Part shown: positions 19,237 through 63,853 of the stretch, in pieces
Layout of the letters: the number at the start of each line of letters is the position of its first letter
How positions within the stretch are numbered: position 1 is the first letter of the stretch
Assembly: GCF_009741925.1 (NCBI RefSeq)
Contig: NZ_WPCC01000003.1
Coordinates: 62,001-126,000 of the forward strand
DNA length: 64,000 nt
Source: Natronomonas sp. CBA1123
GTDB taxonomy: Archaea; Halobacteriota; Halobacteria; Halobacteriales; Haloarculaceae
Direction of reading: 5' to 3'
Made by a program: the position numbers and the translations under genes
Notes under the pieces: model-generated
Seen by the model: only the letters and a program-made list of their open reading frames with translations
Databases searched by the model: none
Told to the model about the DNA's origin: nothing

Positions 19237-20082
19237 TTACAGGTTGAAGACGCGTCGAGCGTTCTCAGAGAGCAGTTTTCGCTCCGACTCGGTACCCAGA
19301 TTCAGGTCTGACACACCTGCCAGAGTTTCCCCAATCTCGATAGTTGGGTAACTCGTTCCCCATATCACTTTGTCCTGTCCCCGCCCTCGGACAAAATCGA
19401 CGAATTCCGTCTCCCAATATTGGGGAGAGTGTCCGGTCGTCGAGATGTAGACGTTCGGATGGGTCCATGCCAGTGCGGTCGCTTCGGTGGTCCACGGCCA
19501 GCCGATATTTGCCGCGACGATGTCTAGACTGGGAAATTCAAGTGCGATGTCGTCGAGGTACTTCGGACGCCCCGGATCGTTTGGCATCCGGACTGCCGTA
19601 TGACCAATCTGAATTATCACTGGAATGTCGAGTTCGGCACACTTCGCATAGAAGGGATAGTACCGTCGATGGTTGGTTGGCAAATGGAATCCGTGGGGAA
19701 CGATGTGTGCACCGACAAATCCGTGCTCCTCCACGTACCGCTCAAGTCTGTGAACGCCTTCCATCCCAGTGAACGGATCAATCCCGACCAAGCCTTTGAA
19801 ACGGTCCGGGTTCTCTTCACAGATATCCGCAACCAAACTTTCCGGGATTTTTACTCCATCTCGCGGATTATTATCACCGTCGAACTTCAAAGATGGAATA
19901 AGAGCCATATCCACGTTGTAGGCGTCCATATAGTCGACGAACTCAGCCGGCGTTTGTCCGGCATCTTGGTACAGTCCTTCTTCCCCCACGAGGTCTGCGA
20001 TATCCTGAATCGCAGAAGCTGCCATTCGTTCCGTAGCATCCTCCGTGAACGGGTTCACCCAGATATCTATCGCGCCCGTCAC
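19237..20082 (-). CDS. Amidohydrolase-2 family protein (ACMSD-like TIM barrel)
   Basis: The 281-residue protein has the pattern of the metal-dependent amidohydrolase_2 family (decarboxylases such as ACMSD and gamma-resorcylate decarboxylase, and lactonases). It has an N-terminal IDIWVNP strand, GAHIVPHG near residue 120, QIGHTAVR near 150, and a C-terminal GTSYPTIE strand followed by NARRVF. The usual HxH on strand 1 is replaced by IDIWVN, so one metal ligand pair is missing. It is divergent from the E2 gene and convergent with the IclR gene. The substrate is unknown; C-C bond cleavage or hydrolysis of a cyclic intermediate is plausible. Confidence 0.7.
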   Translation of the reverse strand: MTGAIDIWVNPFTEDATERMAASAIQDIADLVGEEGLYQDAGQTPAEFVDYMDAYNVDMALIPSLKFDGDNNPRDGVKIPESLVADICEENPDRFKGLVGIDPFTGMEGVHRLERYVEEHGFVGAHIVPHGFHLPTNHRRYYPFYAKCAELDIPVIIQIGHTAVRMPNDPGRPKYLDDIALEFPSLDIVAANIGWPWTTEATALAWTHPNVYISTTGHSPQYWETEFVDFVRGRGQDKVIWGTSYPTIEIGETLAGVSDLNLGTESERKLLSENARRVFNL

Positions 20083-24003: not shown

Positions 24004-25066
24004 TTAGTACTTCTCTGCGGGGAAGTTGGGGTACGACTGTTCGGAGTAGGTGTATTCGGGTGCTCGGTCGCCGCTTGGATACTCGCTTTCGAGTGCGAAT
24101 TCGGCGGCGTCTTCGAGGCGCGCTTTGACATCCACGTCAATCTGATCGAGGGTTTCTTCGGTGAAAACATCCTCCTCGATGAGTGCCTTCCGGAACGTGT
24201 CTATCGGGTCGCGCTCGCGTCTCCATTCCTCTATTTCTTCCTCTGCTCGATACGGCCGGTCCCTAAGCAAGTCCTTCTCGCCGGAGAAGTGGCCCTTATA
24301 CCGGTATGTCTTACACTCTACTAGCCGAGGGCGACTGGTTTCTCGTGTCGTCTTGACGGCTTCTTGGATGGTTTCATACACCTCAAGGACGTTTTGACCG
24401 TTAATCGTCTCTCCGTCCATGTCGTAGCTATCCGCTCGCCCCGAAATTTGTTCGCCAGCAACAGCGTCTTCTTGACTGGTGCTGACTCCGTACTGGTTGT
24501 TTTCACATAAGAACACGACCGGTAAATCCCAGATGGAGGCCATGTTCATCGTTTCATGAACGACACCTTGGTTCGAGGCACCGTCCCCGAAAAACGAGAC
24601 CGAAACTCGGTCGTCGCCGTCCATCTTCGAGCTGAAGGCCGCCCCCGCTGCGTGGGGGACGCTGGCTCCGACAATTGCGTTACATCCGAAGATTCCAAGC
24701 GAGAAATCCACCATGTGCATTGACCCCCCCCCGACCGCGGTTTAGTCCAGTCTCCTTGCCGACCAATTCCGCCATCATCCGGTCTATGTCGGCGCCTTTG
24801 GCGAGTACGTGGCCGTGACCTCTATGCGTACTCGCGATGACGTCATCCTCGCCGAGGGCCAACGACGCTCCAACTGCGACCGCCTCTTGACCGAGATAGA
24901 GATGAATCGGTCCTGGAATCTCTCCTGCGTCGCTCAAATCATCGGCCGTATACTCAAATTCGCGAATTTCGCGCATCATTCTGTACATCCGCCGTAGTAA
25001 CTCCGAATCGTAGTTCGATAACCCTGCCTGCTGGGTTTGTACCTGCTCGGGGTAATCTTGGCTCAT
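24004..25066 (-). CDS. 2-oxoacid dehydrogenase E1 component, alpha subunit, frameshifted at a poly-G tract
   Basis: The N-terminal part begins MSQDYPEQVQTQQAG and includes REFEYTADDLSDAG, PIHLYLGQEAVAVGA and RGHGHVLAKG. The frame breaks at nine C (24724-24732) within the conserved GRGGSMHM motif; eight would restore it. The other frame continues with HMVDFSLGIFGCNAIVG and the ThDP motif GDGASNQG...LCENN, then runs to the normal C-terminus. The protein would be about 354 residues. E1alpha holds the diphosphate end of ThDP and forms an alpha2beta2 tetramer with E1beta. A TATA box lies 27 nt before the ATG. Confidence 0.85.
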
Positions 25067-25092
25067 CTGAGTTGCGTGTTTCGTCTCGGTTG

Positions 25093-25100
25093 TTTTATAG
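25093..25100 (-). promoter_or_regulatory. TATA box for the E1alpha-E1beta-E3 operon
   Basis: CTATAAAA on the minus strand ends 27 nt before the ATG at 25066, the spacing for a leaderless haloarchaeal transcript. The E2 gene has its own promoter on the other strand. Confidence 0.55.
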
Positions 25101-25154
25101 CTTTTGTGCCTTGTTCCCACTTGTTTGGTGGCGGTCGCTTACGGGTGGAGGGTC

Positions 25155-26808: not shown

Positions 26809-27900
26809 ATGACACGAGACTCTTCAGAGACTAGCGGGAGCGAATTATCAGACCGAATGAGTAGGCGGCGGTACATCCAAGCAGCGGCTGCAGGTGGGGC
26901 ACTAACCCTTGCCGGCTGTTCGGGTAACGGTGGGTCGAATGGAAATGGAAACGGCAACGGAGATTCTGACGGTAACGGCGACTCTGATGGCAACGACGGC
27001 TCTGGTGGCGGTGCCACCGAACTGGTGGTGAGTATGCACCAACAGGGAACGAACGCGTTCGCTCAAGGTCAAGCTACCGCGGCAGTCGTCAACGATGCAA
27101 CCGATGAGATTCGACTGGACGTTCGTCCGAGTGGCAGCGTCCGTGAGAACATCGGCCGGTTCGCCCGTGGCGAAACTGACCTCGCGTTCGTCGGTAACTG
27201 GGAACTTGCCAATCTTGAGGCGGGGAACGAGCCGTATGCCGACATTGGTGTCAGTCTTGACCAAGTGGTCACGTACAACTATTCTACATGGATGCTAATT
27301 ACCAACGACGAGAGTGTTCAAACTATTGAGGACTTAGACGGTCGTAGTATCGGAGCGGGCCCAGAGGGTGCAGCGGTGAATCAAATCACCAGGCGTATCT
27401 GTGATATGTATGGTGTTGATGCCGACTTCCCCGATGTCGCTTTCGGCGACAAGCAGGGAGCGTTCAGTGAAGGGATCATCGACGCGGCTGCAATAACCCT
27501 CACTAACTTCGAAGTCATAGTCCCATGGGTCGAACAGATTATGGCGAGTGAAGACACGTACGTCGTCGAGTGGCCCGACGGCGGTGATATGATTGTCGAA
27601 GATGAACTTATTAGTTCGGTCACCTGGGAACAGGAACAGATCCCCGACTTCGACAGGGTGCCGGATGGCGATCACATCGGCTGGGATATCGGATTCTTCT
27701 TGGCGTCAACCACGGAGGTCTCTGACAGCTCGATCTCGACGATGTTGAGCACGATGAATAATAATTTAGACGCACTGATAGAGGCCAACAGCGCCTTTAG
27801 CTTCCATGAAAATATGGATTACTGGACTCGGGCCTTTTACGACGGAGGAGGCATCCATCCCGGAGCACAGTCTTTCTACGAGGATCAGGGCCTGCTGTAA
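26809..27900 (+). CDS. TAXI-type TRAP solute-binding lipoprotein (cluster 1)
   Basis: The 363-residue protein begins with a twin-arginine-type signal (MSRRRYIQAAAAGGALTLAGC, residues about 17-37) with a lipobox Cys. A haloarchaeal Gly/Asn/Asp-rich linker and a TAXI periplasmic-binding domain follow (AFAQGQATAAVVND; FARGETDLAFVGNWE; DLDGRSIGAGPEGAAVNQI). TAXI proteins capture carboxylic acids and pass them to a fused TRAP permease, which follows 76 nt downstream. The ligand cannot be told from sequence. A paralogue is at 56076-57197. TATA-like TTTTATAAC lies about 45 nt before the ATG. Confidence 0.85.
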   Translation: MTRDSSETSGSELSDRMSRRRYIQAAAAGGALTLAGCSGNGGSNGNGNGNGDSDGNGDSDGNDGSGGGATELVVSMHQQGTNAFAQGQATAAVVNDATDEIRLDVRPSGSVRENIGRFARGETDLAFVGNWELANLEAGNEPYADIGVSLDQVVTYNYSTWMLITNDESVQTIEDLDGRSIGAGPEGAAVNQITRRICDMYGVDADFPDVAFGDKQGAFSEGIIDAAAITLTNFEVIVPWVEQIMASEDTYVVEWPDGGDMIVEDELISSVTWEQEQIPDFDRVPDGDHIGWDIGFFLASTTEVSDSSISTMLSTMNNNLDALIEANSAFSFHENMDYWTRAFYDGGGIHPGAQSFYEDQGLL

Positions 27901-27976
27901 CGGCGGTCATTTCACAACAGAATCGCTTTCGGCGATAGTTTTATGACTTCCTGAACAGACGACAGAATCAGACCCC

Positions 27977-29971
27977 ATGATAACCCGTTCAATAATTGAC
28001 GATGAGATTGATTTTGACTCTTTGGCTACTGCAGGTATTTACTTCTTCAGTATCTACCTAGTCTTCCTGCTCCTTTGGTACGCTGCTACGCTTGGAATGA
28101 ACCGAGTCCGTTTTCTTAACCTCTTCCTCGGTCCGGGTCTCGCTGTTTTCTACCTCCACCAGTTCGTGGATAGGGATGACTGGTCTTCGTTTTCGCAAGC
28201 AACTGACGACCGATTTTCGGCGCTGTTAGCCCGAATGAGACCACTTCGAAAGATCGCTGTCTATGCGTATCCGTTGATCGCGGTCCTGTCTCTTGCGTTT
28301 TCGGTGTATGTCGAGTATCACTTCGACCGGATTCGTGTCGATGTACCGCTCGCAGGGATGACTTCCGCAGATTTGTACGTCGGTATCCTCATCATGCTGA
28401 TTATCCTCCACGCTACCAAGGTTGCCTTTGGATGGATCATTTCTCTCTTCACCGTGTTGACCGTCTTGTACGGCTTTGCCGGCCCATGGATGCCCGGGAT
28501 CTTCAGTCACTCGGGGATGGACGTCAATCAAATCGTCTTCAATAATACGATGGCTCTTAACGGGGTTTATGGATTTATTCCGCGGGTCGGTGCAACGTGG
28601 GTCGCCATTTTCATAGTCTTTGCTGGCATGGCTAAATCACTTGGTCTCCTAGATTATGTCATGAGCGTCGGAACGGAGATTGGATCCAAAGTCACGACGG
28701 GAATAACGCACGTTGCGGTCGTTTCGAGTTTCATTATTGGTTCGATGACCGGTGCCGCGGCAGCCAATACGGCGACGACCGGGACGTTTACTATTCCATT
28801 GATGAAAGACCAGGGCCTCAAAGACGAGTACGCCGCCGCAATTGAAAGCGTTGCATCATCAGGGTCTCAAGTCCTCCCGCCCGTGATGGGGATTGCTGCG
28901 TTCCTGATGGCTGAAATTATCGGCATCTCCTACTTCGAAGTTATACGTGGTGCTGCTCTCCCAGCGCTACTGTTTTTCATTTCTATTGCGATTATCATCC
29001 ACTTGCTGATACTGAAAAACAACTGGACCATCGACACATCGGACGAACCAATCGATTACTCAGTGTTCTCGACGGGGTACTACTTTATTGTCCCGCTGGG
29101 TGTGTTGCTGTTTACGCTTGTTGTTCTCCGAATGACGCCACTGGGTGCGGGTTTGTACACGATTCTCTCGCTCATCGCGATTAATTTCCTTTGGACCGTC
29201 TATCAAGAAAATATCACTGTTGACACGTTCAAAGAATTGGGCGCTTCGTATCTCGAGGGGGTCAAGGAAGGCGCCCTTGAAATGGTTCCGCTGCTCGGAG
29301 TCCTCGGTGCGCTCGGAATCGTCGTCCAGATGGTCACACAGACCGGGCTTTCGGGAAAGATTAGCGCTCAGATGCTTGGCCTTGCAGGTGGCGTTTTTGT
29401 GCTTCTACTATTGCTTGCGATGCTTACGAGTCTCTTGTTCGGCCTCGGAATGCCGACACCGGCAGCGTACATTCTTGTCGTTTTCCTCGTCGCACCAGCA
29501 CTTCTTGAGTTCGGCGTCCAGCAGCTCACCGGACACCTGTTCGTGTTCTACTTCGCGATGCTCTCGGCAATCACACCACCTGTTGCCCTCTGTTGCGCCA
29601 TCGGCTCACGCATAGCGAATTGTAGCTTTATAGGTACCTGCAAGCAGGCGCTCCGAATCGGTGCGCCAGCGTTCGTACTCCCGTTTGCCTTTGTTGCCAA
29701 CGACTCGCTCATCTTCTGGAGTTTCCCAAGTACGGTGTTAGTATTCCTTGGCGTTCTGTTTGGGTTCGTGATACTCGGAATGGGACTAAGTGGACACAAC
29801 GGTGCAAGGTCTATCGGTATCCCCTTGAGAGGATTATACCTCGGACTCGGATTGGCCATCCTCGTCGGCCCACCGACGGTCATGGTTGCTGCCGGAGGGG
29901 TCTCTCTCCTCTTTCTGATTGGCGATGTGTTCGGCCTAGCGAAAGTCCGGTCAACACTGAGCAACCAGTAA
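27977..29971 (+). CDS. TRAP transporter fused permease (DctQM type, cluster 1)
   Basis: The 664-residue membrane protein combines the small four-helix DctQ-like part (about residues 1-150) with the large DctM-like part (about 150-640). DctM motifs include IGSMTGAAAANTATTGTFTIPLM, ASSGSQVLPPVMGIAAFLMAE and LTSLLFGLGMPTPAAYILVV. With the TAXI protein it makes a complete ion-driven carboxylate importer. The frame is intact here, and the same conserved GLGMPT segment is where the paralogue at 57205-59210 is broken. It is probably co-transcribed with the binding protein, although a TATA-like element lies between them. Confidence 0.88.
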   Translation: MITRSIIDDEIDFDSLATAGIYFFSIYLVFLLLWYAATLGMNRVRFLNLFLGPGLAVFYLHQFVDRDDWSSFSQATDDRFSALLARMRPLRKIAVYAYPLIAVLSLAFSVYVEYHFDRIRVDVPLAGMTSADLYVGILIMLIILHATKVAFGWIISLFTVLTVLYGFAGPWMPGIFSHSGMDVNQIVFNNTMALNGVYGFIPRVGATWVAIFIVFAGMAKSLGLLDYVMSVGTEIGSKVTTGITHVAVVSSFIIGSMTGAAAANTATTGTFTIPLMKDQGLKDEYAAAIESVASSGSQVLPPVMGIAAFLMAEIIGISYFEVIRGAALPALLFFISIAIIIHLLILKNNWTIDTSDEPIDYSVFSTGYYFIVPLGVLLFTLVVLRMTPLGAGLYTILSLIAINFLWTVYQENITVDTFKELGASYLEGVKEGALEMVPLLGVLGALGIVVQMVTQTGLSGKISAQMLGLAGGVFVLLLLLAMLTSLLFGLGMPTPAAYILVVFLVAPALLEFGVQQLTGHLFVFYFAMLSAITPPVALCCAIGSRIANCSFIGTCKQALRIGAPAFVLPFAFVANDSLIFWSFPSTVLVFLGVLFGFVILGMGLSGHNGARSIGIPLRGLYLGLGLAILVGPPTVMVAAGGVSLLFLIGDVFGLAKVRSTLSNQ

Positions 29972-30075: not shown

Positions 30076-30099
30076 TTGCTATGACCTAACGTGATTTGT

Positions 30100-31286
30100 A
30101 TGGGTCAAGAGCTCACAGACGAGCAGCAGATGCTTGTCGATATCGCGCATGATATCACTGAAGACTTCGGTGATTCGTATTTCCGGGAGAAGCGGTTGGC
30201 CGACGAGGAGCCAACCGAGTACATTGAGGCTATTGCCGAGGCCGGATTCTTCGGCATCCCGATTCCCATTGAACACGGTGGCGAGGGAATGGGAATGGAA
30301 GAACTGGTGTATGCAATCGAGGCACTTTCCGAGGCCGGAGGATGGCTGCTTGGTAGCCGGTTTACGCTGAATACGGTTTTCGGCGGCATCGTGCTTTCAA
30401 GATATGGAACCGATGAGCAGAAAGAAGAGCATCTCTCGGCCTTGGCTAAGGGTAAAAAGAGCTGGGCGCTCGGCGTCACCGAACAAAAAGCCGGCTCGAA
30501 TATGCTTAACACCCAGACGTTTGCCGAACGAGATGGTGACGAGTTCGTCATCAATGGCGAAAAGGTGTTCAATTCCGGACTAGACCACGCTGACGGATAC
30601 ACTTTCCTCGCACGAACAAAAAAGCCGGAAGAAGCGGACAACCGAACTGACGGTCTCACCGTGTTCTTGGTGGACCCGGAAGCCGACGGAATCGAATACG
30701 ATCCGGTGGGCCTTGACATCTACTGGCCAGCAGGCGAACGAACATTCACCGTGCATATTGACGACCTCCGTGTACACGAATCACAGGTTATTGGAGAGGT
30801 TCATGGTGGCTTCAAGCCGATATTCGACGTACTCAACCCAGAGCGGATTAGCGTTGCTGCCGAACATATCGGTCGGGGTCGGTGGGTTCTAAATCAGGCG
30901 GTCGAACGCGCGAAAGAGCGGGAAGTCTGGGGGGGGGGGAGCCGATCGGTTCCCATCAGGCTATCCAGCATCCACTAGCGGAGTCACACGCCAATTTAGA
31001 GACTGCCCGGACCATGACGACACGAGCGGCACGAGCCTACGACGAAGGGTATGATAACGTCGGCGAGCTTTCCAATATCGCCCATTTCAAGGCTGGAGAG
31101 GCAGGCTTCGAAGCGGCCGATAACGCGCTCGAAACGTTTGGTGGAGCTAGCGCAACGGAGGATTACGGTATCGCCGCTATCTGGAGCTACGCCCGCCATC
31201 AGCGAATCGCTCCCATTACAGACCAAATGAAACTGAACTATATCGCTAATAACGTCCTTGAACTACCCCGGTCATACGGTATCTGA
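30100..31286 (+). CDS. Acyl-CoA dehydrogenase, frameshifted in an 11-G tract
   Basis: The first part (30100 to about 30930) carries the N-terminal helical domain (LTDEQQMLVDIAHDI; GFFGIPIPIEHGGEGMG), the FAD/substrate beta-domain (WALGVTEQKAGSN; VINGEKVFNSG) and VLNPERISVAAEHIGRG. It breaks in eleven G at 30929-30939. A shifted frame continues EPIGSHQAIQHPLAESHANLETARTM to the C-terminus (FEAADNALETFGGASATEDYG). Family members have a short, fixed-length turn here, so the G run looks expanded as well as frameshifting. The enzyme would oxidise an acyl-CoA at the alpha-beta bond with FAD and pass electrons to ETF. Confidence 0.8.
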
Positions 31287-31358: not shown

Positions 31359-32207
31359 TTAGAGGCCGAGAATCCTCCGGGCGTCGTCGGGGGTCGCCAC
31401 GGGACGATTGAGTTCATCCGCGATTCTCACGGCCCGCTGGACGAGCTGAGCGTTACTTTCTGCGAGTTCTCCCTTGTCGTAGAATACGTTGTCTTCCATT
31501 CCGACCCGGACGTGGCCACCCATCGACATGGCCATTGTGGTCAGCGGTAGCTGGTGTCGACCGACTGCCAGACACTGCCATTCGGAGGCATCTGGAAGAT
31601 TATCGACTGCGTTCACGAGGTTCCGCGGCCGGGCAGGAATCCCGTTCTGCATGCCAAACACGAGCGTACACCAGTATGGCTCTTCGAGTAAATTCTCTTC
31701 AACAAGATACTGCATCTCAGGGAGGTGCCCCGTATTGAAAATTTCCAGTTCAGGCTTGACCCCGTTTTCGAGCATCTCGCGGGCGTATGTTTCGTTCTGT
31801 TCTCTCGTGTTGAGTGCTGAGGTGTCGTATCCGAAATTGAGTGGCCCGAGGTCAATCGTTGCCATGTCTGGTTGTGGTTCAACTTCAAGGGCGGGCCGTA
31901 GGCGGTGGGGCCCGAGTTCGAACCCACCGGTGGTGAAATTGACGAGAATGTCGTCGCAGTGGTTGTCTATCGCGTCACGTATCTCTTGGAACTTCGAAAC
32001 GGAGGTCGTCGGATTCCCGTCCTCGTCTCTCGCGTGAATGTGAGCTATCGACGCTCCTGCCTCCTCACAAGCAGCGAGGTCAGTCGCAATCTCTTCAGGT
32101 TGCTCGGGGAGGTTCGGATTGGCTTCCTTACCTTGGGCGCCCCCCGTCAATGCGACGCTGAGTATCACTGGTTTCTCGAAGTAGTCTTGATAACCGTTGT
32201 ACGGCAT
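31359..32207 (-). CDS. BKACE family beta-keto acid cleavage enzyme (DUF849)
   Basis: From ATG 32205-32207 the protein has 282 residues. It carries the BKACE hallmarks: KPVILSVALTGGAQGK at the N-terminus, the metal-binding HIHARDEDG, SMGGHVRVGMEDNVF near residue 225 with its metal-proximal His, and TPDDARRILGL at the end. These Zn-dependent enzymes condense a beta-keto acid with acetyl-CoA and split it into acetoacetate and a new acyl-CoA (the archetype is Kce of lysine fermentation). Its presence suggests that a beta-keto acid forms in this pathway. It lies downstream of the amidohydrolase/DUF59 pair in the same direction. Confidence 0.85.
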   Translation of the reverse strand: MPYNGYQDYFEKPVILSVALTGGAQGKEANPNLPEQPEEIATDLAACEEAGASIAHIHARDEDGNPTTSVSKFQEIRDAIDNHCDDILVNFTTGGFELGPHRLRPALEVEPQPDMATIDLGPLNFGYDTSALNTREQNETYAREMLENGVKPELEIFNTGHLPEMQYLVEENLLEEPYWCTLVFGMQNGIPARPRNLVNAVDNLPDASEWQCLAVGRHQLPLTTMAMSMGGHVRVGMEDNVFYDKGELAESNAQLVQRAVRIADELNRPVATPDDARRILGL

Positions 32208-32376
32208 ACTCAGTAGTGTGTACATACATCTGTATCAACATTTTCATACAATAATTGTCATATTGGGGTGGGAATTATTCGGTGAGATCGGGTAGAGTCG
32301 TTCACAATCGGCCCATTATGGGACTGTCTCTAAAAATAATGACTTTCGGTGAAGGCAGTCCTCTGGGTTCGTTCGG

Positions 32377-32736
32377 TTACTCAGGTGAATTTTTGATGAG
32401 CTGTCCAGCATCTCGTGCCTTCTTAAGATCTTCGGACAGCCGCTCCGGTCTCCACATTTTTTCGGTGGCGTTAATTATCTCAATGTCAACATCATCAATG
32501 GCGTCAATCTTCTGTACTTCTCGCTCAGCGTCCCTCATTATTTGTCCCATGTAAAGACACATAGGCGAGGTTGGGAGCAAACGGATTGAGACTGATCGGT
32601 CTTCCACCTGTATCTCTTCGACTAATCCGAGCTCAACGATACTGACTGGGCTTGCGGTGTTGCAGCTGCAGGGATCAAGTACCTCCTCAAGTTGCTGAAC
32701 GACGTGGTCCTGCGTCGCTTGACTCTCAACCGACAT
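32377..32736 (-). CDS. DUF59/MIP18-like protein with CSC motif (cluster 1)
   Basis: Starting at ATG 32734-32736, one base after the amidohydrolase stop, the protein has 119 residues. It has the DUF59 (metal-sulfur cluster assembly) fold pattern: QQLEEVLDPCSCNTASPVS, IVELGLVEEIQV and LLPTSPMCLYMGQIM. Three cysteines (CSC plus the later Cys) could bind metal. Classical DUF59 proteins help deliver Fe-S clusters. Here the tight pairing with an amidohydrolase, repeated at 62292-63820 with the same motifs, suggests a dedicated partner such as a metal-loading factor or subunit. That role is inference. Confidence 0.75.
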   Translation of the reverse strand: MSVESQATQDHVVQQLEEVLDPCSCNTASPVSIVELGLVEEIQVEDRSVSIRLLPTSPMCLYMGQIMRDAEREVQKIDAIDDVDIEIINATEKMWRPERLSEDLKKARDAGQLIKNSPE

Positions 32737-32737
32737 C

Positions 32738-33826
32738 TCAGTCGTCACCCGCTGCTGGCTCGGGTTCGACATCTATCCCTGCACACGACCACGGCTCCGG
32801 CCGACCCTCTTCTTCGAGACGCTCTGCCCACTTGTCGTTCTGGACGTGCTCTCGAAGTTCGTCGGCGTCCCAGTCGTAAAGATTAATGAGGTTCTCGCCG
32901 AGAATTCCACGTTTCATCTCGTCGGTTAGCTCTGGATAGCCATATTCTTCCTGCATGTCTTCCGGGAACTGGTACTCCCAGAAGGCCTCAATGTATTGCT
33001 GGGCATGGACAAGCGGTACCCCTGTCGCCCAGATGATTTTACTCGGATCACCATGAAGGACCAGTTCCCCGAGAACTTCGGCGAATCGTCGCGGCTGGAG
33101 GGCGAGGATTCCCAGCGAGAGCTCCAGATTGAGCCAGATATTATCGAAGTTGGCTGTCATCGGCTTAATTTCGTGAATGTAGTGGATATCGGGATGGAGT
33201 AACTCGAACTGGATGTCTGGATACATCGCGGCTATTTCCGCGACATCGTTCGGGTCGACGTTGTGGATGCCAACGGGTCCGAGGGGGAGCACTTTATGAG
33301 AGCCGATGTGCTTGATACCTAATTCGTGTGCCTTCTCTACTATGGGAAGTAGGTCGTCATCAAGCCGTAGTTCGCGTACTCGTCCGTCATTGCGGTAGTA
33401 CGTAGGATACGTTTTGAAGCCATCAACACCGTACTCCTCGACCTGCCGTTCCATTTCATCTATTGCGTCTTTCCCTAGTGGGTCTACGTCACCCAAGAGT
33501 TTCACACGCTTGGGATTGTTTTCTTTCAGTTTGAGGCCGGTTTCCAACGAGGAATACCCGTCATAAAAAAGGTCATAAATCGGCGTCGAGTGGTAGACCC
33601 CGAAGTCAACATCGCTTTCTAGAAACGTCGCTTCCTCGATTTCATCGGCGGTCCAGTTCCTGCACCACTGTTCTCTGGAATGTGCAAGTTCTGGTTCCAG
33701 GGCTTGCCCCTTCTGGAGCTCTACGACATTTTCCATCAACCGTTCGGCCTCTTTGTTTCGTAGGTTCTCGTCGGAGTTGTTCAGGGAATGGAGTACCCCG
33801 TCACCGATGAGCATATCTTTGTACAT
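32738..33826 (-). CDS. Amidohydrolase family protein paired with DUF59 (cluster 1)
   Basis: From ATG 33824-33826 (a TATA-like GATTTATCCC is 35 nt upstream) the protein has 362 residues. Features of an amidohydrolase_2 TIM barrel are DGVLHSLN at the N-terminus, VDGFKTYPTYYRNDGR near 165, KHIGSHKVLPLGPVG near 205, FELLHPDIHYI near 235 and IIWATGVPLVHAQQ near 300. The tail contains YPELTDEMKRGILGENLINLY. The paralogue at 62744-63820 shares this tail, so the two are duplicates. The family includes decarboxylases and ring-opening hydrolases; the reaction is unknown. An ATG eight codons earlier (33850) is too close to the TATA box. Confidence 0.75.
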   Translation of the reverse strand: MYKDMLIGDGVLHSLNNSDENLRNKEAERLMENVVELQKGQALEPELAHSREQWCRNWTADEIEEATFLESDVDFGVYHSTPIYDLFYDGYSSLETGLKLKENNPKRVKLLGDVDPLGKDAIDEMERQVEEYGVDGFKTYPTYYRNDGRVRELRLDDDLLPIVEKAHELGIKHIGSHKVLPLGPVGIHNVDPNDVAEIAAMYPDIQFELLHPDIHYIHEIKPMTANFDNIWLNLELSLGILALQPRRFAEVLGELVLHGDPSKIIWATGVPLVHAQQYIEAFWEYQFPEDMQEEYGYPELTDEMKRGILGENLINLYDWDADELREHVQNDKWAERLEEEGRPEPWSCAGIDVEPEPAAGDD

Positions 33827-33860: not shown

Positions 33861-33870
33861 GGGATAAATC
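33861..33870 (-). promoter_or_regulatory. TATA-like element for the amidohydrolase/DUF59 operon
   Basis: GATTTATCCC on the minus strand resembles GATTTATTACCC in the same place before the cluster 2 amidohydrolase. Conservation of sequence and position between duplicates supports it as the promoter. Confidence 0.5.
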
Positions 33871-34082: not shown

Positions 34083-35117
34083 ATGGTTTTCGATACAAAT
34101 CCTTCGGAGGTCTCGGAGTCCGAAGGCGAAGAATCGGGAGAGACGGAGCAGCAACGGGATGAAATTCATTCGAGGCGAATCGACGGTCCTGATTCGTTCC
34201 TCAATGAGCCAACAGAACTCACCGAAGGTGTCTATCTTCTTGAGGAATGTACTATCAACCCTCATCTCCGCGAACTAAAAGCCGCTCAGAACCCACAGTG
34301 GTTCAAGCGCGGTCACGAGTTCCACACGCCGATTAATACGTATCTGCTGGTCGGTGAGGACGAAGCCCTGTTGTTCGACACGTCGTCTCCGAATGTCAGA
34401 AACGCCATTACCGACGGGGTTCGAGAGATTCTTGAGAAGGAAGATGTGGAATTGTCGTATCTCGTGTTATCCCACGACGAGGCTGCTCATGTGGGGAACG
34501 CATACCCGATTAGTAGGGAAGCGGCCATGGTGCACCCAGATTACCAAGAAGACGCCGACGATACCTACGAACTACAAGAAGAACTCCATTCGACGCTGAT
34601 TGCCCGGAAGCCGTCTCGAGTTGCTCCTGAATTCCACTACTTCGATGACGCGGAGTTAGTTGAACCTGGGCATACGATTGACTTGGGTGGCGGTCGAGTT
34701 GTCGAATTCATAGAACCTGTCTGGCAGGACGGGGCACCGACACTGTGGATGTATGACCACAAGGATAAGGGCCTCTACTGTGTCGACTCCTATGGATTCC
34801 CCCATTGTAGTGGTGACTGCGGCAAGTGGGCTGATGAACTCGAACACCGTGTTTCCCAAGACCAAATGATGGAGTACAACGGGCGGGCTTTCCGGTATAT
34901 TCCGAACTGTAATCCGTGGAAAATAATCGACCAACACAATCATCTCTACGACAACTACGATATCGAACATATCTTCCCCGCTCACGGACAGCCGATTCGA
35001 GAGGAAATCGACCGATACCGGGGGCTGATGGATTCAATGGTTGAGCGCATCTCTCGAGACGGCTCACTGGGTACCGAATACGTTAGCGCGGAAGAACTCA
35101 CCGACATATCGTTCTAA
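34083..35117 (+). CDS. Degenerate metallo-beta-lactamase-fold protein, ODP-like (A)
   Basis: The 344-residue protein has an acidic disordered N-terminus (about 1-40) and then an MBL fold: TYLLVGEDEALLFDTSS, a metal-loop equivalent YLVLSHDEAAHVGN, GRVVEFIEPVWQDG, LYCVDSYGF and IFPAHGQPI. The loop recalls the HxExDH of flavodiiron/ODP-type domains, with the Asp changed to Ala. A Cys-rich turn (PHCSGDC) follows the LYCVD strand. It is followed after 4 nt by a second, more degenerate MBL gene. A di-iron redox or hydrolytic role is possible; no substrate is apparent. Confidence 0.7.
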   Translation: MVFDTNPSEVSESEGEESGETEQQRDEIHSRRIDGPDSFLNEPTELTEGVYLLEECTINPHLRELKAAQNPQWFKRGHEFHTPINTYLLVGEDEALLFDTSSPNVRNAITDGVREILEKEDVELSYLVLSHDEAAHVGNAYPISREAAMVHPDYQEDADDTYELQEELHSTLIARKPSRVAPEFHYFDDAELVEPGHTIDLGGGRVVEFIEPVWQDGAPTLWMYDHKDKGLYCVDSYGFPHCSGDCGKWADELEHRVSQDQMMEYNGRAFRYIPNCNPWKIIDQHNHLYDNYDIEHIFPAHGQPIREEIDRYRGLMDSMVERISRDGSLGTEYVSAEELTDISF

Positions 35118-35121
35118 ACCA

Positions 35122-35892
35122 ATGGTCCGACAAATCACAGACAGTCTGTATTGGATTCATGAGTGCACCGAAGCACCGGATGCAGATCACCACATCCACA
35201 CCTCGCTCTACATCATCGAACACGAGGGGAGCTACATCTTGCTTGACGATGGTCCGTTCCTTCACGCCGAGGGACTAAAAGAACAGGTTGAGGACATTAC
35301 GGGTCCCGAAGGTCCGGATGCAAATTTCATTTTCAAACCCCACACTCCCCATTCCGGGAACGCAGGTCATTTCAAGGAGACGTGGGAGAACATGGAGGTG
35401 GTCTTCCCCATCGGAGGCGCGAAAGTATCGGGAATCCCGACGCCGGTTACCGGCTTCGACGAACTGGTCGGGCCGATATCCATCGAGGGCCGGAAAATGA
35501 GTCTCACCGAAGTACCGGTAATCGACGTTCAGACGACCACTTGGGTGTTCGACGAGGTCGACAACGTGTGGTTCACACTGGAAGGGTTTGGATACTTCCA
35601 TGAAGGAAACCAGTGTAATTTGGTATCAAACGAATACGGAGAAGGTCTCGAATACAACTATATCGACGACTACTACGCGGATGACTTCGTGGCGTGGGCG
35701 AAGTACGTGGATGCCGAGCGTACCGTCTCGCGAATCATGGGCTTGCTGGACAAATACGAACCAGAAGTTATCGCACCTGCACACGGCGCCCCGATAATCG
35801 GCGACGACATTGACCACTACATGCGTCAGTTCGCCGAATCGATGGAGGTCAAAGACGAGAGTTTCGAATTACCGCCGTACGGTGAGTATTAA
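35122..35892 (+). CDS. Degenerate metallo-beta-lactamase-fold protein, ODP-like (B)
   Basis: From ATG 35122 the protein has 256 residues with MBL-fold strands (SLYIIEHEGSYILLDDGP, VVFPIGGAKVSG, VIAPAHGAPIIGDD). In place of HxExDH it has FKPHTPHSGN, keeping only two His, and the Asp-bearing strand reads WFTLEGFGYF, without the metal-ligand Asp. Only the last His (APAHG) is standard. Tight linkage to gene A and similar length suggest a heteromeric complex with one metal-poor subunit. The function is unknown. Confidence 0.68.
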   Translation: MVRQITDSLYWIHECTEAPDADHHIHTSLYIIEHEGSYILLDDGPFLHAEGLKEQVEDITGPEGPDANFIFKPHTPHSGNAGHFKETWENMEVVFPIGGAKVSGIPTPVTGFDELVGPISIEGRKMSLTEVPVIDVQTTTWVFDEVDNVWFTLEGFGYFHEGNQCNLVSNEYGEGLEYNYIDDYYADDFVAWAKYVDAERTVSRIMGLLDKYEPEVIAPAHGAPIIGDDIDHYMRQFAESMEVKDESFELPPYGEY

Positions 35893-56075: not shown

Positions 56076-57197
56076 ATGACACGGCTTAACAGGAGACGAT
56101 TCGTTCAGTTGACGGGTGCCGCAGGTGTCGCCGGTCTGGCGGGTTGTGTCGGTGGGAACGGCGATGGTAACGGCAACGGTAATGGAGATTCCGGCAACGG
56201 TAACGGCAACGGCAACGGAAACGGTGGCGGCGGTACGACGAGTATCGCAGTAGGCATTCCGTCCGCAAGCACCACGACTGGCGCGGCGTCGAATTCCTTC
56301 CAGCGTGTCGTGCGAGAGGAATCTGCTGACACGGAGCCGGCTGGTGAACTGCGTTGGCAGAATCAGGAAACCGGCGGTGACCCGCCAAGCCTCCGACAGT
56401 TCAGCCAGGGTAACGTCCAGGCGATGACTGGCGGGAACTTCATTTTAGCGTCGGCGGTCCAGGAAGAACCGCCGTTCAGCGAGCGGCCGGTCGAAAACAT
56501 CCCGCACCAGATGTTCTCGATTGCCCCGCTTCACATGCACATCCTGTCGCTCAACGGATCGGGCATCGAGACGACCGACGACCTCGTCGGCAGTAACTTC
56601 TGGCCGCTCCCGCCGCAGTGGGGCCTGCGCCAGCAAGCCGAGACGGTGTTCAAGAACACGGGCCTGTGGAGCGAACTGCAGGACACTGACTCCATCGTCA
56701 ATGCGGGAACGGGAGACGTGGCTGGTCTCATCGAGCAGGGGAACGTCGACGCGCTGGTCGCCTACGGTGCCGGGTTCGCGAACCTCGCAGGGTGGGCGAC
56801 GGAGGTCGACGCCCGTGCCGACCTGCAACTGGTCGACTTCACCGACTCCTTCATCGAAGGGGTCAACGGAACACGCGGGACCAGCCACTCGGCCATCGAG
56901 CCCTACGGCTGGGAACAGCAGAGCTTCGAGACCAACGAGATGGACGTTTACGGTGCCGACTTCCAGTTCTGGCTGGGCGGCAGCGTTTCGCGCGACGTCG
57001 GCTACGAGCTGGCGAAAATCAGCAACGAGAACGCTGCGGCTATCCAGGAAGGACAACCGGCGTATCTCGACCACAGTGACGCCGAGAGCATGGCGTCGCT
57101 GTATCTCGAAGACATCCCGGTCCATCCGGGCCCCTACGACTACCTAGAGGAGCAGGGTGTAGACATGAGCGCGTACACCCGCGGCGAAGAGATGTAG
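56076..57197 (+). CDS. TAXI-type TRAP solute-binding lipoprotein (cluster 2)
   Basis: The 373-residue protein has a twin-arginine signal (MTRLNRRRFVQLTGAAG) with lipobox GLAGC and a long Gly/Asn linker. A TAXI domain follows (IAVGIPSASTTTGAASNSFQ; LRQFSQGNVQAMTGGNFIL; LWSELQDTDSIVNAGTGD). It lies 7 nt before its permease, so they are one unit. It is the counterpart of 26809-27900, but the domain sequence is divergent, suggesting a related but different ligand. Confidence 0.85.
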   Translation: MTRLNRRRFVQLTGAAGVAGLAGCVGGNGDGNGNGNGDSGNGNGNGNGNGGGGTTSIAVGIPSASTTTGAASNSFQRVVREESADTEPAGELRWQNQETGGDPPSLRQFSQGNVQAMTGGNFILASAVQEEPPFSERPVENIPHQMFSIAPLHMHILSLNGSGIETTDDLVGSNFWPLPPQWGLRQQAETVFKNTGLWSELQDTDSIVNAGTGDVAGLIEQGNVDALVAYGAGFANLAGWATEVDARADLQLVDFTDSFIEGVNGTRGTSHSAIEPYGWEQQSFETNEMDVYGADFQFWLGGSVSRDVGYELAKISNENAAAIQEGQPAYLDHSDAESMASLYLEDIPVHPGPYDYLEEQGVDMSAYTRGEEM

Positions 57198-57204
57198 GTC
57201 GAGG

Positions 57205-59210
57205 ATGAGTGAAACCCAGAGTGACCCGCCGGTATGGTCGCCCTTGGGGTTCAAGCGAGAGCACTTGCTGAACAACCTCGTCACCATCGCGGCACTGGTT
57301 TTTTGGGGACGAGTCCTGATGTACGCGGTCAACCAGAAAGCCCCACGCGCGAAGTACGCCGCCGTCTTCCTGGGAACCGCGCTGCTCGTATATGTGCTCC
57401 ACGAACTCCACCAACTGGACAGCGATAAGCGTCTCGAACGACTCGGGTTGTGGCTCTGTGCCGTCGTTGGCGTCAGCGTCCCGGCCTACGTCTGGCTAAA
57501 CTACCAGGTACTCGAAACGACGCGTGTCGGATACGCACTCCAACACGAGTACGTCATCGGTGGCGTGTTCGCCATCGTCGTCCTCTACTTGACCTATCGG
57601 GCGTTCGGGGCGGCCTTCGCCGGTGTCGTCGTGCTGTCGATACTGTACGCCTACTTCGGCAACCGAGTCGGCGGCTTGCTCGGCCACAGTGGCATCGCCG
57701 CCGAGCAAATTATCAACCTGCTGACGATGGAGTTCGACGGATTCTTCGGCTCCATCACCCAAATCGTTGCCGCGTGGGTCGCGTTGTTCCTGCTATACGC
57801 CGGGTTGATGCGTGGGTACGGGGCCTTCGACCTCATCATGCGGGTTTCATTCAAGACCGCAAAGTACCTTCGTTCCGGGGTAGCACAGTCGGCCGTCATT
57901 TCGAGCCTCATCGTCGGCTCGATTAACGGCGCCCAAACCGCAAACGCCGCGATGACCGGGTCGTTCACCATTCCATTGATGCAGGAGAGCGGAATGAAGG
58001 GCGAATCGGCCGGCGGCATCGAGGCCGTTGCCTCCTCGGGTGGTCAGATTATGCCACCAGTTATGGGTGCCGCGGCGTTCGTCATGGCGTCGCTCATCAG
58101 CGGTATCGGCTACGTGGACGTCCTCATCGCGGGTATCATCCCGGCGCTCGTGTTCTACATCTCCGTCGCCGTGGGCGTCCACTACATGTCCATCAAGCAG
58201 CTGCCGGAGGGTGGCATCGACATCGAGTCACGTATCGAGGACCTCGACGATGGGTTCCACCCGGTTATCGAGTTCGTCCGGTTCGGTGTACCGTTCGCTG
58301 TACTGCTGTACACGCTAGGCATCGCCCGGTACACGGTCATTTATTCGGCGCTGTTGACCTGTGCGACCATGGTGCTGACCGGTGCGGGGATTCCGTTGGC
58401 CCTCAGTTTCGTCGGCGACGACATGGCTCCGGTCGCGACGTTCAAAGACGCGGTGAACAACACCGTCTCCGGATTCAAATTCGGCGCGATTACGATGGCA
58501 CCCATCGCCATCATCATCGCAGCGGTCAACGGCATCGTCGACCTGCTGAACGCGACGGGCCTGCCCGGCAAACTCTCGCTGGCGCTGGTCGGCCTCGCCG
58601 GCGGCGTCCTGCTGTTGACGAGCATCTTCGCGATGATCGTTTGTTTGGTGCTCGGACTCGGCATGCGACGGTGGCCGCTTACACCATCGTTGCATTGCTG
58701 ATTGCACCGACGTTTACCGGCGAGTTCGGAATGGCACCGCTGTCCGCTCACTTCTTCGTGTTCTACGCGGCCATCCTCTCGGGAATCACACCGCCGATTG
58801 CCATCGCTGTGGTAGTGACGACGGGCATCGCGGGCTCGAACTTCTGGCGCACGGCGCTCGAGGCGCTGAAACTCGGCATGCCGTTGTTCGTCCTCCCGTT
58901 CACGTTCCTCTACAACCCCGAAATCGTGACGGGTGGATTCAACGCCGGGACTGCGGGATCCGGTCTCATCGTCCTGCTCGGAGCAGTCGCCATCACCCAT
59001 GGGCTCAACTGCGCTCCGAAACCGTTCGGCATCCCGTCGCCGCTCAGCTACGGGGCGCGCGGTCTCTACGTGGCACTCGGGATTTTCGCGATGGTCTGGC
59101 CGGCGACGGTTCCGCGAATCGGGGCCGCCGTCGTCGCGCTAGTCCTCATCGCGGCACAGACGGGACTACCACGGTTCCGTGAAATCGGGGCTGCCGTCAA
59201 CCAGAAGTAG
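57205..59210 (+). CDS. TRAP transporter fused permease (cluster 2), frameshifted
   Basis: The frame starting at 57205 covers the DctQ-like part and most of DctM (GSINGAQTANAAMTGSFTIPLMQ; ASSGGQIMPPVMGAAAFVMA) up to LVLGLGM near 58665, then goes out of frame. A second frame resumes TVAAYTIVALLIAPTF and continues to 59210 (GMAPLSAHFFVFYAAILSGI). One missing C in GGCATGCGACG restores the family motif GLGMPT seen intact in the paralogue at 27977. The total would be about 668 residues, normal. A sequencing error or recent mutation is likely, since both sides are conserved. Confidence 0.85.
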
Positions 59211-61319: not shown

Positions 61320-61380
61320 ACGTACTCATGCGTATTACGTTACGAATACGCACTATTGGGTACTGCTCGAACAGACGATT
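61320..61380 (+). repeat. Decayed copy of the palindrome and gene start at 15552-15612
   Basis: Sixty-one bases align without gaps to 15552-15612, with 47 identical by my count. The palindrome core (ACGTA...CATGCGTA...TACGT) is kept. The start codon equivalent to 15580 reads ACG, so translation would be lost. The shared LLEQTI codons run directly into an acyl-CoA synthetase tail at 61381. Confidence 0.6.
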
Positions 61381-61760
61381 GACGCGCTCAACGTCGCCGG
61401 CCGCAAAGTCGGCCCCGCCGAGATGGAAGGTGCTGCGATGGAACACGAGGCTGTCAATCAGGCCGCTGCCGTCGGCGCTCCCGACGACATCACCGGCACC
61501 GCCGTCGTCCTGTACGTAGTCGTCGAGGGAGGCTACGAGAAAAGCGACGAGTTACGCGAGGAGGTCCGTTCGAAGGTCGGCGAGGAACACGGCAAACCGT
61601 TCGGGCCGCAGGAGGTGCTGTTCGTCGACGAGTTCCCCAAAACTCAGTCGGGAAAATCATCCGACGGGCCGTCGAGGCGACCTACACCGGCGAAAGTCTA
61701 GGCGATATGTCCTCCATCGAGAATCCCGACGTACTCGACGAACTCGAAGACGCTCGGTAG
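61381..61760 (+). pseudogene. C-terminal fragment of acetyl-CoA synthetase-type enzyme
   Basis: The translation begins DALNVAGRKVGPAEMEGAAM, the C-terminal domain of acetate/propionate-CoA ligases. It continues through AAAVGAPDDITGTAVVLYVV and VDEFPKTQSGK. There a one-base loss shifts the frame. In the other frame RRAVEATYTGESLGDMSS and the normal end at TAG 61758-61760 follow. The N-terminal four-fifths of the enzyme is missing. It is a fusion relic attached to the repeat block upstream. Confidence 0.75.
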
Positions 61761-62291: not shown

Positions 62292-62741
62292 TCAGTCGGA
62301 CCGTTCGGCGTAGGGGGTGATGTCGGCGGCTTCGATGCGCTCATCGAATCGCTCGCGGCGTTCGGCCCGCTGCTGTTCGGACATCCGTTCGGCGGTCCAC
62401 ACCTTCCCGCTGGTCACCTGGTGGACGTCGGCCGACTCGATACCGTCGAGGGATTCGACCCGCTCGCGGATTTCGTCGGTTATATCGATGACGTACATGC
62501 ACCGCTGTGAGGTCAGCAGGATGTCGATGCGTGCCTCGCTGGCCGCCTCGTCGACCGTGATGTCATCGACGAGTCCGAGGTCGACGATGTCGATGGGGTG
62601 ATCGCTCATGCAGCTACATGGATCCAGTACCTCTCGGAGTTGGGCCTTGACGGCCGTCGCGAGGTCATTATCGAACTCGGTATCGGGGGTGACGTGGCCG
62701 AGGTCGGCCTCGGGGTCCGTGTCTGTGTCGTAGATGCTCAT
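62292..62741 (-). CDS. DUF59/MIP18-like protein with CSC motif (cluster 2)
   Basis: From ATG 62739-62741, two bases after the amidohydrolase stop, the protein has 149 residues. After an acidic N-terminus it repeats the cluster 1 pattern: QLREVLDPCSCMSDHPIDIV, DLGLVDDITV, LLTSQRCMYVIDI, then VTSGKVWTAERMSEQQ. The DPCSC motif and third Cys are shared with 32377-32736. They define a DUF59 subgroup tied to these amidohydrolases. A metal- or cluster-handling partner role is inferred. Confidence 0.78.
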   Translation of the reverse strand: MSIYDTDTDPEADLGHVTPDTEFDNDLATAVKAQLREVLDPCSCMSDHPIDIVDLGLVDDITVDEAASEARIDILLTSQRCMYVIDITDEIRERVESLDGIESADVHQVTSGKVWTAERMSEQQRAERRERFDERIEAADITPYAERSD

Positions 62742-62743
62742 GG

Positions 62744-63820
62744 TTATGCAGGTGTGTCGTAGGTCGACCACGGTTCGGCCGGGAACTCACCCGTCTCCTT
62801 GCGTTCTTGGCGTAACTGGTCCCACTTGTCGCCCTCGATGTCCTTCTTGACCTGCTCGGGGTCCTTGTCGAGGAGCCGAAGGGCGTTCTTTCCGAGGACT
62901 TTCTCCTTGATCTCGTCGGTGAGTTCGGGGTAGTCGTTTCCGGCGCGCATGTCCTCCGGAATCTCGAAGTCCCAGAACGATTCGATGGCCGCCTGCGGGT
63001 GCAGTGCGGTCGACCCGCCGGAGAAGACGATGCGGTCCGGCCCGGCCCAGTACAGCATCTCACCCAGCGAGCGGGCGAACTTCCTGGGGCGTGAGCAGGC
63101 CATGTGGATGGTGTTCTCGAGGTTCGCGTAGACGTTCTCGTGGCTCGCCATCGCGAACACGGTCTCTTCGAGGAACGAGAAGCCGGCGTGGATGACCTCG
63201 AAGTTGAGCTCGGGGAAGGCGTTGGCGGCGTCCTCGACGTCGCCCATCCGGAAGTACCGGACGGGAGCGGTCGCGAATGGAATGAACTTGTGGATTCCGA
63301 CGGAGGTTACGTCGAGGTCGGCGGCCTTCTCCAGTACCGGACGGACACAGTCCTCGTTCAACTGCAGTGAGAGGTCCTGGCCGTTCTGGTAGCGGGCGGG
63401 ATAGAGCTTGATTCCCTCGACGTCCTTCTCCTTGACGTAGTACTCGACCTGCTCGACCGCGTCGTCGTCGAGCGGGTTGATGTCGACGTACATCGAAACG
63501 CGGTCGGGATTGCGGTCACGCAGTTCGAACCCCTTGTCGCGGGCGACCAGGCCATCGTGGAAGTAGTCGTCGAGTGGTAGAGAGTGATAGTTCGTATAAT
63601 CGACCTGACTCTCGAGGAACAGTAGCCGCTCGAGTTCCTCGACCGAGTGGTCGCGGAAAAAGACTTCTTTGGGATGGACGTACTCCTCGGGTTGCAGTTG
63701 CTCGCCCAGCTCGAACGTTTCCCTGTCCCAGCGCTCGGCGTGTGGGTGTTTCCGGTTCTCCTCCGTATGGTTGAAACAGTGTGAAACTGAATCAACGACT
63801 AGTGCGCCACTCTCTAACAT
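62744..63820 (-). CDS. Amidohydrolase family protein paired with DUF59 (cluster 2)
   Basis: Starting at ATG 63818-63820, 28 nt after a TATA-like GATTTATTACCC, the protein has 358 residues. It has VVDSVSHCFNH at the N-terminus, VEGIKLYPARYQNGQ near 165, TSVGIHKFIPFATAPV near 205, FEVIHAGFSFLEET near 240 and RIVFSGGSTALHPQAA near 300. Its tail (DYPELTDEIKEKVLGKNALRLL) matches the cluster 1 enzyme. Metal-ligand positions look partly changed (SHCFNH for HxH). It is the first gene of the amidohydrolase-DUF59-UspA operon. The reaction is unknown. Confidence 0.77.
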   Translation of the reverse strand: MLESGALVVDSVSHCFNHTEENRKHPHAERWDRETFELGEQLQPEEYVHPKEVFFRDHSVEELERLLFLESQVDYTNYHSLPLDDYFHDGLVARDKGFELRDRNPDRVSMYVDINPLDDDAVEQVEYYVKEKDVEGIKLYPARYQNGQDLSLQLNEDCVRPVLEKAADLDVTSVGIHKFIPFATAPVRYFRMGDVEDAANAFPELNFEVIHAGFSFLEETVFAMASHENVYANLENTIHMACSRPRKFARSLGEMLYWAGPDRIVFSGGSTALHPQAAIESFWDFEIPEDMRAGNDYPELTDEIKEKVLGKNALRLLDKDPEQVKKDIEGDKWDQLRQERKETGEFPAEPWSTYDTPA

Positions 63821-63847: not shown

Positions 63848-63853
63848 AATAAA
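63848..63853 (-). promoter_or_regulatory. TATA-like element for the cluster 2 amidohydrolase operon
   Basis: On the minus strand TTTATT sits within AGATTTATTACCC, about 28 nt before the ATG at 63820, and resembles the element before the cluster 1 counterpart. Confidence 0.5.

Follow-up and report, generated by a model that had tools for sequence, protein, structure and literature searches.

We describe a family of amidohydrolases that is spread over haloarchaea and at least 5 bacterial phyla and whose genes nearly always lie next to that of a small protein, either of the DUF59 type or with a NifU domain. We propose that the two proteins constitute a two-component catabolic enzyme in which the task of the small partner is to load or to hold an iron or iron-sulfur (Fe-S) centre, a reading to which we assign a probability of about one half. 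The pairing itself is real and ancient, and it is found far more often than expected by chance. On the tree of the enzymes, the type of partner follows the clades, one of which has a NifU-domain protein in the place of DUF59, and in the clade of the two pairs that started this analysis, part of the usual metal site has been lost.

Two amidohydrolase-DUF59 pairs in a haloarchaeal genome

The window, a stretch of 64,000 nt of Natronomonas sp. CBA1123, is part of a 3.45 Mb haloarchaeal genome and encodes two such pairs, both on the minus strand. The features discussed here are as follows (clades are defined below; the promoter boxes are called from the consensus).

31359..32225, minus strand: beta-keto acid cleavage enzyme (BKACE), immediately after pair 1 on the same strand (PF05853, 320 bits)
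32377..32736, minus strand: DUF59 partner of pair 1, 119 aa, DPCSC...TSPMC (ORF; PF01883, 44.3 bits; alignment)
32738..33826, minus strand: amidohydrolase of pair 1, clade B, 362 aa (ORF; PF04909, 50.6 bits; clade and lineage from the tree)
33863..33868, minus strand: putative TATA-like box of pair 1, TTTATC, centred 39 nt before the start codon
61848..62288, minus strand: universal stress protein, immediately after pair 2 on the same strand (at the corresponding position in an annotated relative and in L061)
62292..62741, minus strand: DUF59 partner of pair 2, 149 aa, DPCSC...TSQRC (ORF; PF01883, 39.9 bits; alignment)
62744..63820, minus strand: amidohydrolase of pair 2, clade B, 358 aa (ORF; PF04909, 91.7 bits; AlphaFold2 TIM barrel)
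63848..63853, minus strand: putative TATA-like box of pair 2, TTTATT, centred 30 nt before the start codon

Both enzymes exceed the Pfam cutoff for Amidohydro_2 (PF04909, 26.4 bits) and both small proteins that for FeS_assembly_P (PF01883, 23.5 bits). Together with the open reading frames, these matches confirm what a sequence-only reading of the window had claimed, namely, two pairs with the same gene order and gaps of 1 nt (pair 1) and 2 nt (pair 2) between the stop codon of the enzyme and the start of DUF59. The motifs that it had listed are likewise common to both DUF59 proteins: DPCSC, V[ED]LGLV and a later Cys, which belongs to a T-S-x-x-C motif. The TATA elements that it had called similar do share TTTAT, at unequal distances of 39 and 30 nt. 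Its description of the pair as duplicated, by contrast, does not hold in the sense of a recent event: the enzymes of pairs 1 and 2 are only 37% identical and fall into separate lineages of the tree, each with its closest relatives in other organisms (for pair 1, L006, with 63% identity), so that recent duplication was rejected. A third, ordinary Amidohydro_2 protein is encoded at 19237-20082 (minus strand) without a DUF59 partner.

The pairing across genomes

Among 292 haloarchaeal genomes, 108 of which encode the amidohydrolase family, all 33 clade B enzymes adjoin a DUF59 protein with the DPC motif, and 33 of the 34 DPC-type DUF59 proteins have the enzyme alongside (enzymes matched at E <= 1e-127, partners on the same strand with at most 164 nt between the matched domains). 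The DPC type is clearly separated from other DUF59 proteins, with E <= 1e-36 against >= 1e-19. The lone orphan (G058:C2) adjoins AFOR (aldehyde ferredoxin oxidoreductase) and BKACE genes and thus resembles a remnant of the pair 2 neighbourhood. For bacteria, we inspected the best 60 DUF59 matches, from 44 genomes and with E-values up to about 2e-18: 51 lie beside a listed enzyme, 5 more proved on inspection to have one, and the other 4 are ordinary DPE types without the enzyme, so that all 56 bacterial DPC-type proteins adjoin a family amidohydrolase. Conversely, 64 of the 65 family amidohydrolases in these 44 genomes have a partner of the DPC, DPE or NifU type. Given that the bacterial genomes were found through the enzyme loci, both counts measure linkage rather than frequency. 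The one partnerless enzyme of this count is a second copy that abuts a transposase gene (L132, 2765-4006); it is one of a few second copies that have no partner of their own, another being at L111 (5969-7255). Over haloarchaea and bacteria, a DPC-type DUF59 without the enzyme occurs in 1 of 90 cases. The pair is common and linked, contrary to the rarity or lack of linkage that would have refuted the sequence-only reading, and these counts support its notion of a partner reserved for a single enzyme family.

The two genes mostly overlap by ATGA or TGATG or are separated by 0-6 nt, although start codons were taken nearest the stop, which biases the spacing toward short gaps. In Thermomicrobium and L206, the gene order is reversed, and in Actinomadura madurae, an alpha/beta-hydrolase-like gene is located between the amidohydrolase and its DUF59 (L118, 11081-12247). 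No natural fusion of enzyme and DUF59 was found among about 150 loci. Enzyme and partner are also inherited together: in a mirror-tree comparison of 41 DPC pairs, the distances among enzymes and those among DUF59 proteins are correlated with r = 0.55 (maximum over 1000 permutations, 0.23), a value to which the relatedness of the species in general contributes, and each window DUF59 has its nearest relative at the same locus as the nearest relative of its enzyme.

Distribution of partner types on the enzyme tree

In the tree of 57 enzymes (LG+C20), the DPE-paired clade, the NifU-paired clade and the main DPC-paired clade each have 99% SH-aLRT support, and three changes suffice to account for the distribution of partner types. 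Clade A enzymes have a canonical metal site and an ordinary DPE-type DUF59 partner. In clade B, the first His and the strand-8 Asp of the site are lost and the partner is of the DPC type; both window enzymes are placed outside the DPE clade and within the DPC clade. In clade C, a NifU-domain protein stands in place of DUF59: the partners match PF01106, one of them being annotated as 'NifU family protein', and the pairing extends to at least 6 genera of Actinomycetota and Pseudomonadota (Thermocatellispora, Paraburkholderia, Amycolatopsis, Shinella, Ensifer and Mesorhizobium). Two loci with DUF59 variants that contain CC or DPCC, L055 and L168, are positioned near the NifU clade. As the position next to the enzyme is taken by carriers of two unrelated folds, the property that they share is most likely the provision of iron or Fe-S, and the exchange of DUF59 for a NifU domain favours such provision over a generic role.

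A remodelled metal site

The canonical ligands, the strand-1 HxH and the strand-8 Asp, fail in both window enzymes, which have V12-x-H14 and G269 (pair 2 numbering) and retain the His residues of strands 5 and 6; the amidohydrolase was therefore rightly singled out as unusual, two of its usual metal ligands being gone. This pattern is general. In all 97 DPC-paired enzymes aligned, Val, Ile, Thr or Ser is found at position 12, and position 269 holds Gly or Ala, whereas H14, E70, K138, Y140, H177, K178, H211, N229, E235 and H274 are invariant. All 27 DPE-paired enzymes keep H12 and D269, with Ala in place of E235 and a variable position 274, whereas neither of the two NifU-paired enzymes aligned has H12, and both carry Glu at 269. 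This correlation between ligands and partner type depends on few phylogenetic events. Because clade A combines an ordinary-looking site with an ordinary DUF59, remodelling is not a prerequisite for having a partner.

The AlphaFold2 model of the pair 2 enzyme is a TIM barrel (pLDDT 94.7, pTM 0.93), in which the invariant residues are predicted to lie at the C-terminal ends of strands 1, 4, 5, 6 and 7 and just past strand 8; judged from these strand ends, they would be close to one another. The active site of a TIM barrel is usually found on this side. The best Foldseek matches are decarboxylases and hydratases similar to ACMSD, with 12-16% identity. A profile search retrieved no close solved structure, only 3irs (E = 4.7e-6), and neither window enzyme matches an NCBIfam family.

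The DUF59 partner

The window DUF59 proteins lack the DPE motif and have DPCSC with an inserted loop instead. Aligned to solved DUF59 structures, the DPC Cys replaces the Glu of DPE and is accompanied by a five-residue insertion, and the second Cys, that of TSxxC, coincides with the conserved Cys of TM0487 (1uwd); both are invariant in the sampled alignment. In TM0487, the DPE position and the conserved Cys are, presumably, close in space. The two proteins do not reach the cutoffs of the characterized families, namely, SufT TIGR02945 (49.7 and 49.9 bits against 143.4), PaaD NF041868 (37.2 and 49.2 against 180) and PaaD TIGR02159 (29.8 and 22.7 against 108.15). A read-through construct of the in-frame Halorientalis salina pair, with Gly in place of the stop codon, was modelled with AlphaFold2 at pLDDT 93.0 and pTM 0.76; compared with about 0.69, our own estimate for independent placement of enzyme and DUF59, this weakly supports contact between the two, their relative placement in the model being uncertain.

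Genomic neighbourhoods

Clade B pairs are surrounded by genes for AMP-binding ligases, SDRs, sugar-type ABC transporters, thiolases, acyl-CoA dehydrogenases, AFOR, ALDH and BKACE (neighbourhoods were clustered with genes chosen by codon-position GC). In the window's genome, genes for ALDH, AFOR, a ribose-type ABC transporter, an SDR, BKACE and IclR are found upstream of pair 2, past the window, with the BKACE gene about 9.3 kb beyond this pair (L194). In Pseudomonas simiae, an SDR, a BKACE and a thiolase form the core of the oxidative deoxyribonate pathway (PMC6365646), so that a step at the level of a sugar acid or lactone is a reasonable guess for pair 2.

Other genes in the window include two sets for TAXI-type TRAP transporters, comprising an NMT1_3 binding protein and DctM, one near each pair (26809-29971 and 56076-59210, plus strand), the DctM of the second set being apparently split between two frames. 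Adjacent genes divergent from pair 1 (34083-35117 and 35041-35892, plus strand), the first of them metallo-beta-lactamase-like (PF00753), both have counterparts close to the amidohydrolase gene of genome G061 (L052). Several genes are disrupted: an acyl-CoA dehydrogenase (30091-31286, plus strand) has a frameshift near 30933, its intact relative in L053 (88% identity) spanning both pieces; a 2-oxoacid dehydrogenase E1 (24004-25120, minus strand) has one near 24725, again with an intact relative in L053; and a remnant of an AMP-binding ligase, the last ~150 residues with a change of frame (61357-61757, plus strand), corresponds to a ligase that accompanies pair 2 in relatives.

The surroundings of clade A are of another kind: in bacteria, it resides within SDIMO operons together with GroEL and ADH, and in haloarchaea and Thermomicrobium beside ADH without SDIMO (the plasmid annotation being incomplete). 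The SDIMO subunit PF02332 has no match in the window's genome. This type of di-iron monooxygenase is rare in the class, its subunits being present in 3 of 284 haloarchaeal genomes (G149, G174 and G274), so that SDIMO maturation was rejected as a general role of the pair. A defence function was rejected as well, there being no PADLOC match.

Discussion

Under the explanation that we favour, the amidohydrolase would be the catalytic TIM barrel and the small partner a dedicated carrier of iron or Fe-S that provides for the centre of the barrel and may remain bound to it. In clade B, where the strand-8 Asp and the leading His of HxH are missing, the usual mononuclear site would have been rebuilt around the invariant His14, Lys138, His177, His211, Glu235 and His274, and the partner would offer two cysteines, the ordinary one of DUF59 and a second where DPE has its Glu. 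The reaction is probably a non-redox step, that is, hydration or dehydration, lactone opening or decarboxylation; candidate substrates are sugar-acid, alcohol- or ketone-derived intermediates upstream of CoA activation or BKACE cleavage.

Alternatively, the partner could be a permanent subunit, its cysteines and residues of the barrel jointly binding iron or an Fe-S cluster where the two proteins of an obligate heteromer meet. The translational coupling, which suggests near-equal synthesis, the invariance of the DPC and TSxxC cysteines and the pTM of the read-through model all point in this direction. However, DUF59 and NifU domains are known carriers, a structural subunit would be hard to swap for an unrelated fold, and fusions are lacking among the loci surveyed, so that we consider such a heteromer unlikely. 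The partner might also have no role in the metal centre of the enzyme and be co-transcribed with it only to meet the need of the entire pathway for an Fe-S factor, given that DUF59 proteins such as SufT serve general Fe-S maturation (PMC4982691). Yet, what stays constant across differing neighbourhoods is the enzyme and not some other Fe-S protein, and the near absence of DPC-type DUF59 proteins without it makes this account quite improbable.

The roles could even be reversed, with the amidohydrolase itself being part of a maturation module for metalloenzymes encoded nearby, for instance di-iron monooxygenases or aldehyde ferredoxin oxidoreductase. The location of clade A in SDIMO operons with GroEL and the AFOR genes beside pairs of the second type are in line with this possibility, which is nevertheless highly improbable: SDIMO subunits are far rarer in haloarchaea than the amidohydrolase family, many loci have no such metalloenzyme nearby, and the residues of the catalytic face are strongly conserved.

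Part of the family has been sighted before. The sequence-only reading, which knew of no description of such a system, overlooked the sister pairs of clade A downstream of the propane monooxygenase genes prmABCD, recorded as a 'metal-dependent hydrolase' and a 'metal-sulfur cluster biosynthetic enzyme' with no function given (PMC4428276, PMC6849523, PMC9213486). Its statement stands for clades B and C: among the open full-text papers searched, we found no description of these clades, of the ligand remodelling or of the NifU swap, and no paper on the function of the pair apart from the notes on neighbours of the prm operon. The prm pairs of Rhodococcus, Gordonia and Mycobacterium belong to the same amidohydrolase family as the window pairs and are just as tightly linked, but they keep the canonical ligands, a long DPE-type DUF59 and GroEL, ADH and SDIMO neighbours, all of which the window pairs lack. 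With 2,6- and 2,3-dihydroxybenzoate decarboxylases, 5-carboxyvanillate decarboxylase and the LigJ hydratase, the window enzymes have the TIM-barrel fold in common; from these ACMSD-like Amidohydro_2 enzymes they differ by their low identity and the loss of two metal-ligand positions. Similarly, their partners share the PF01883 domain and the conserved Cys with SufT, PaaD and MIP18 but have DPC and an insertion instead of DPE and are dedicated to one enzyme family.

Amidohydrolases are regarded, to our knowledge, as dependent on zinc, nickel, manganese or iron and as having no need for Fe-S machinery. Urease, an enzyme of the amidohydrolase superfamily, has dedicated nickel-loading proteins; it thus shares with the window pairs the existence of metal-delivery partners, although the partner families and the metal are unrelated, the window partner being of the Fe-S type. 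It is possible, if still doubtful, that the family represents a class of the amidohydrolase superfamily that needs an iron-sulfur or iron centre from a dedicated, exchangeable carrier, either DUF59 or a NifU domain, and in which the classical site was rebuilt in the derived clades. If so, these pairs would amount to a novel class of enzymes, would give DUF59 proteins a role not assigned to them before, and would bear on two long-unassigned genes in the operons of propane monooxygenases.
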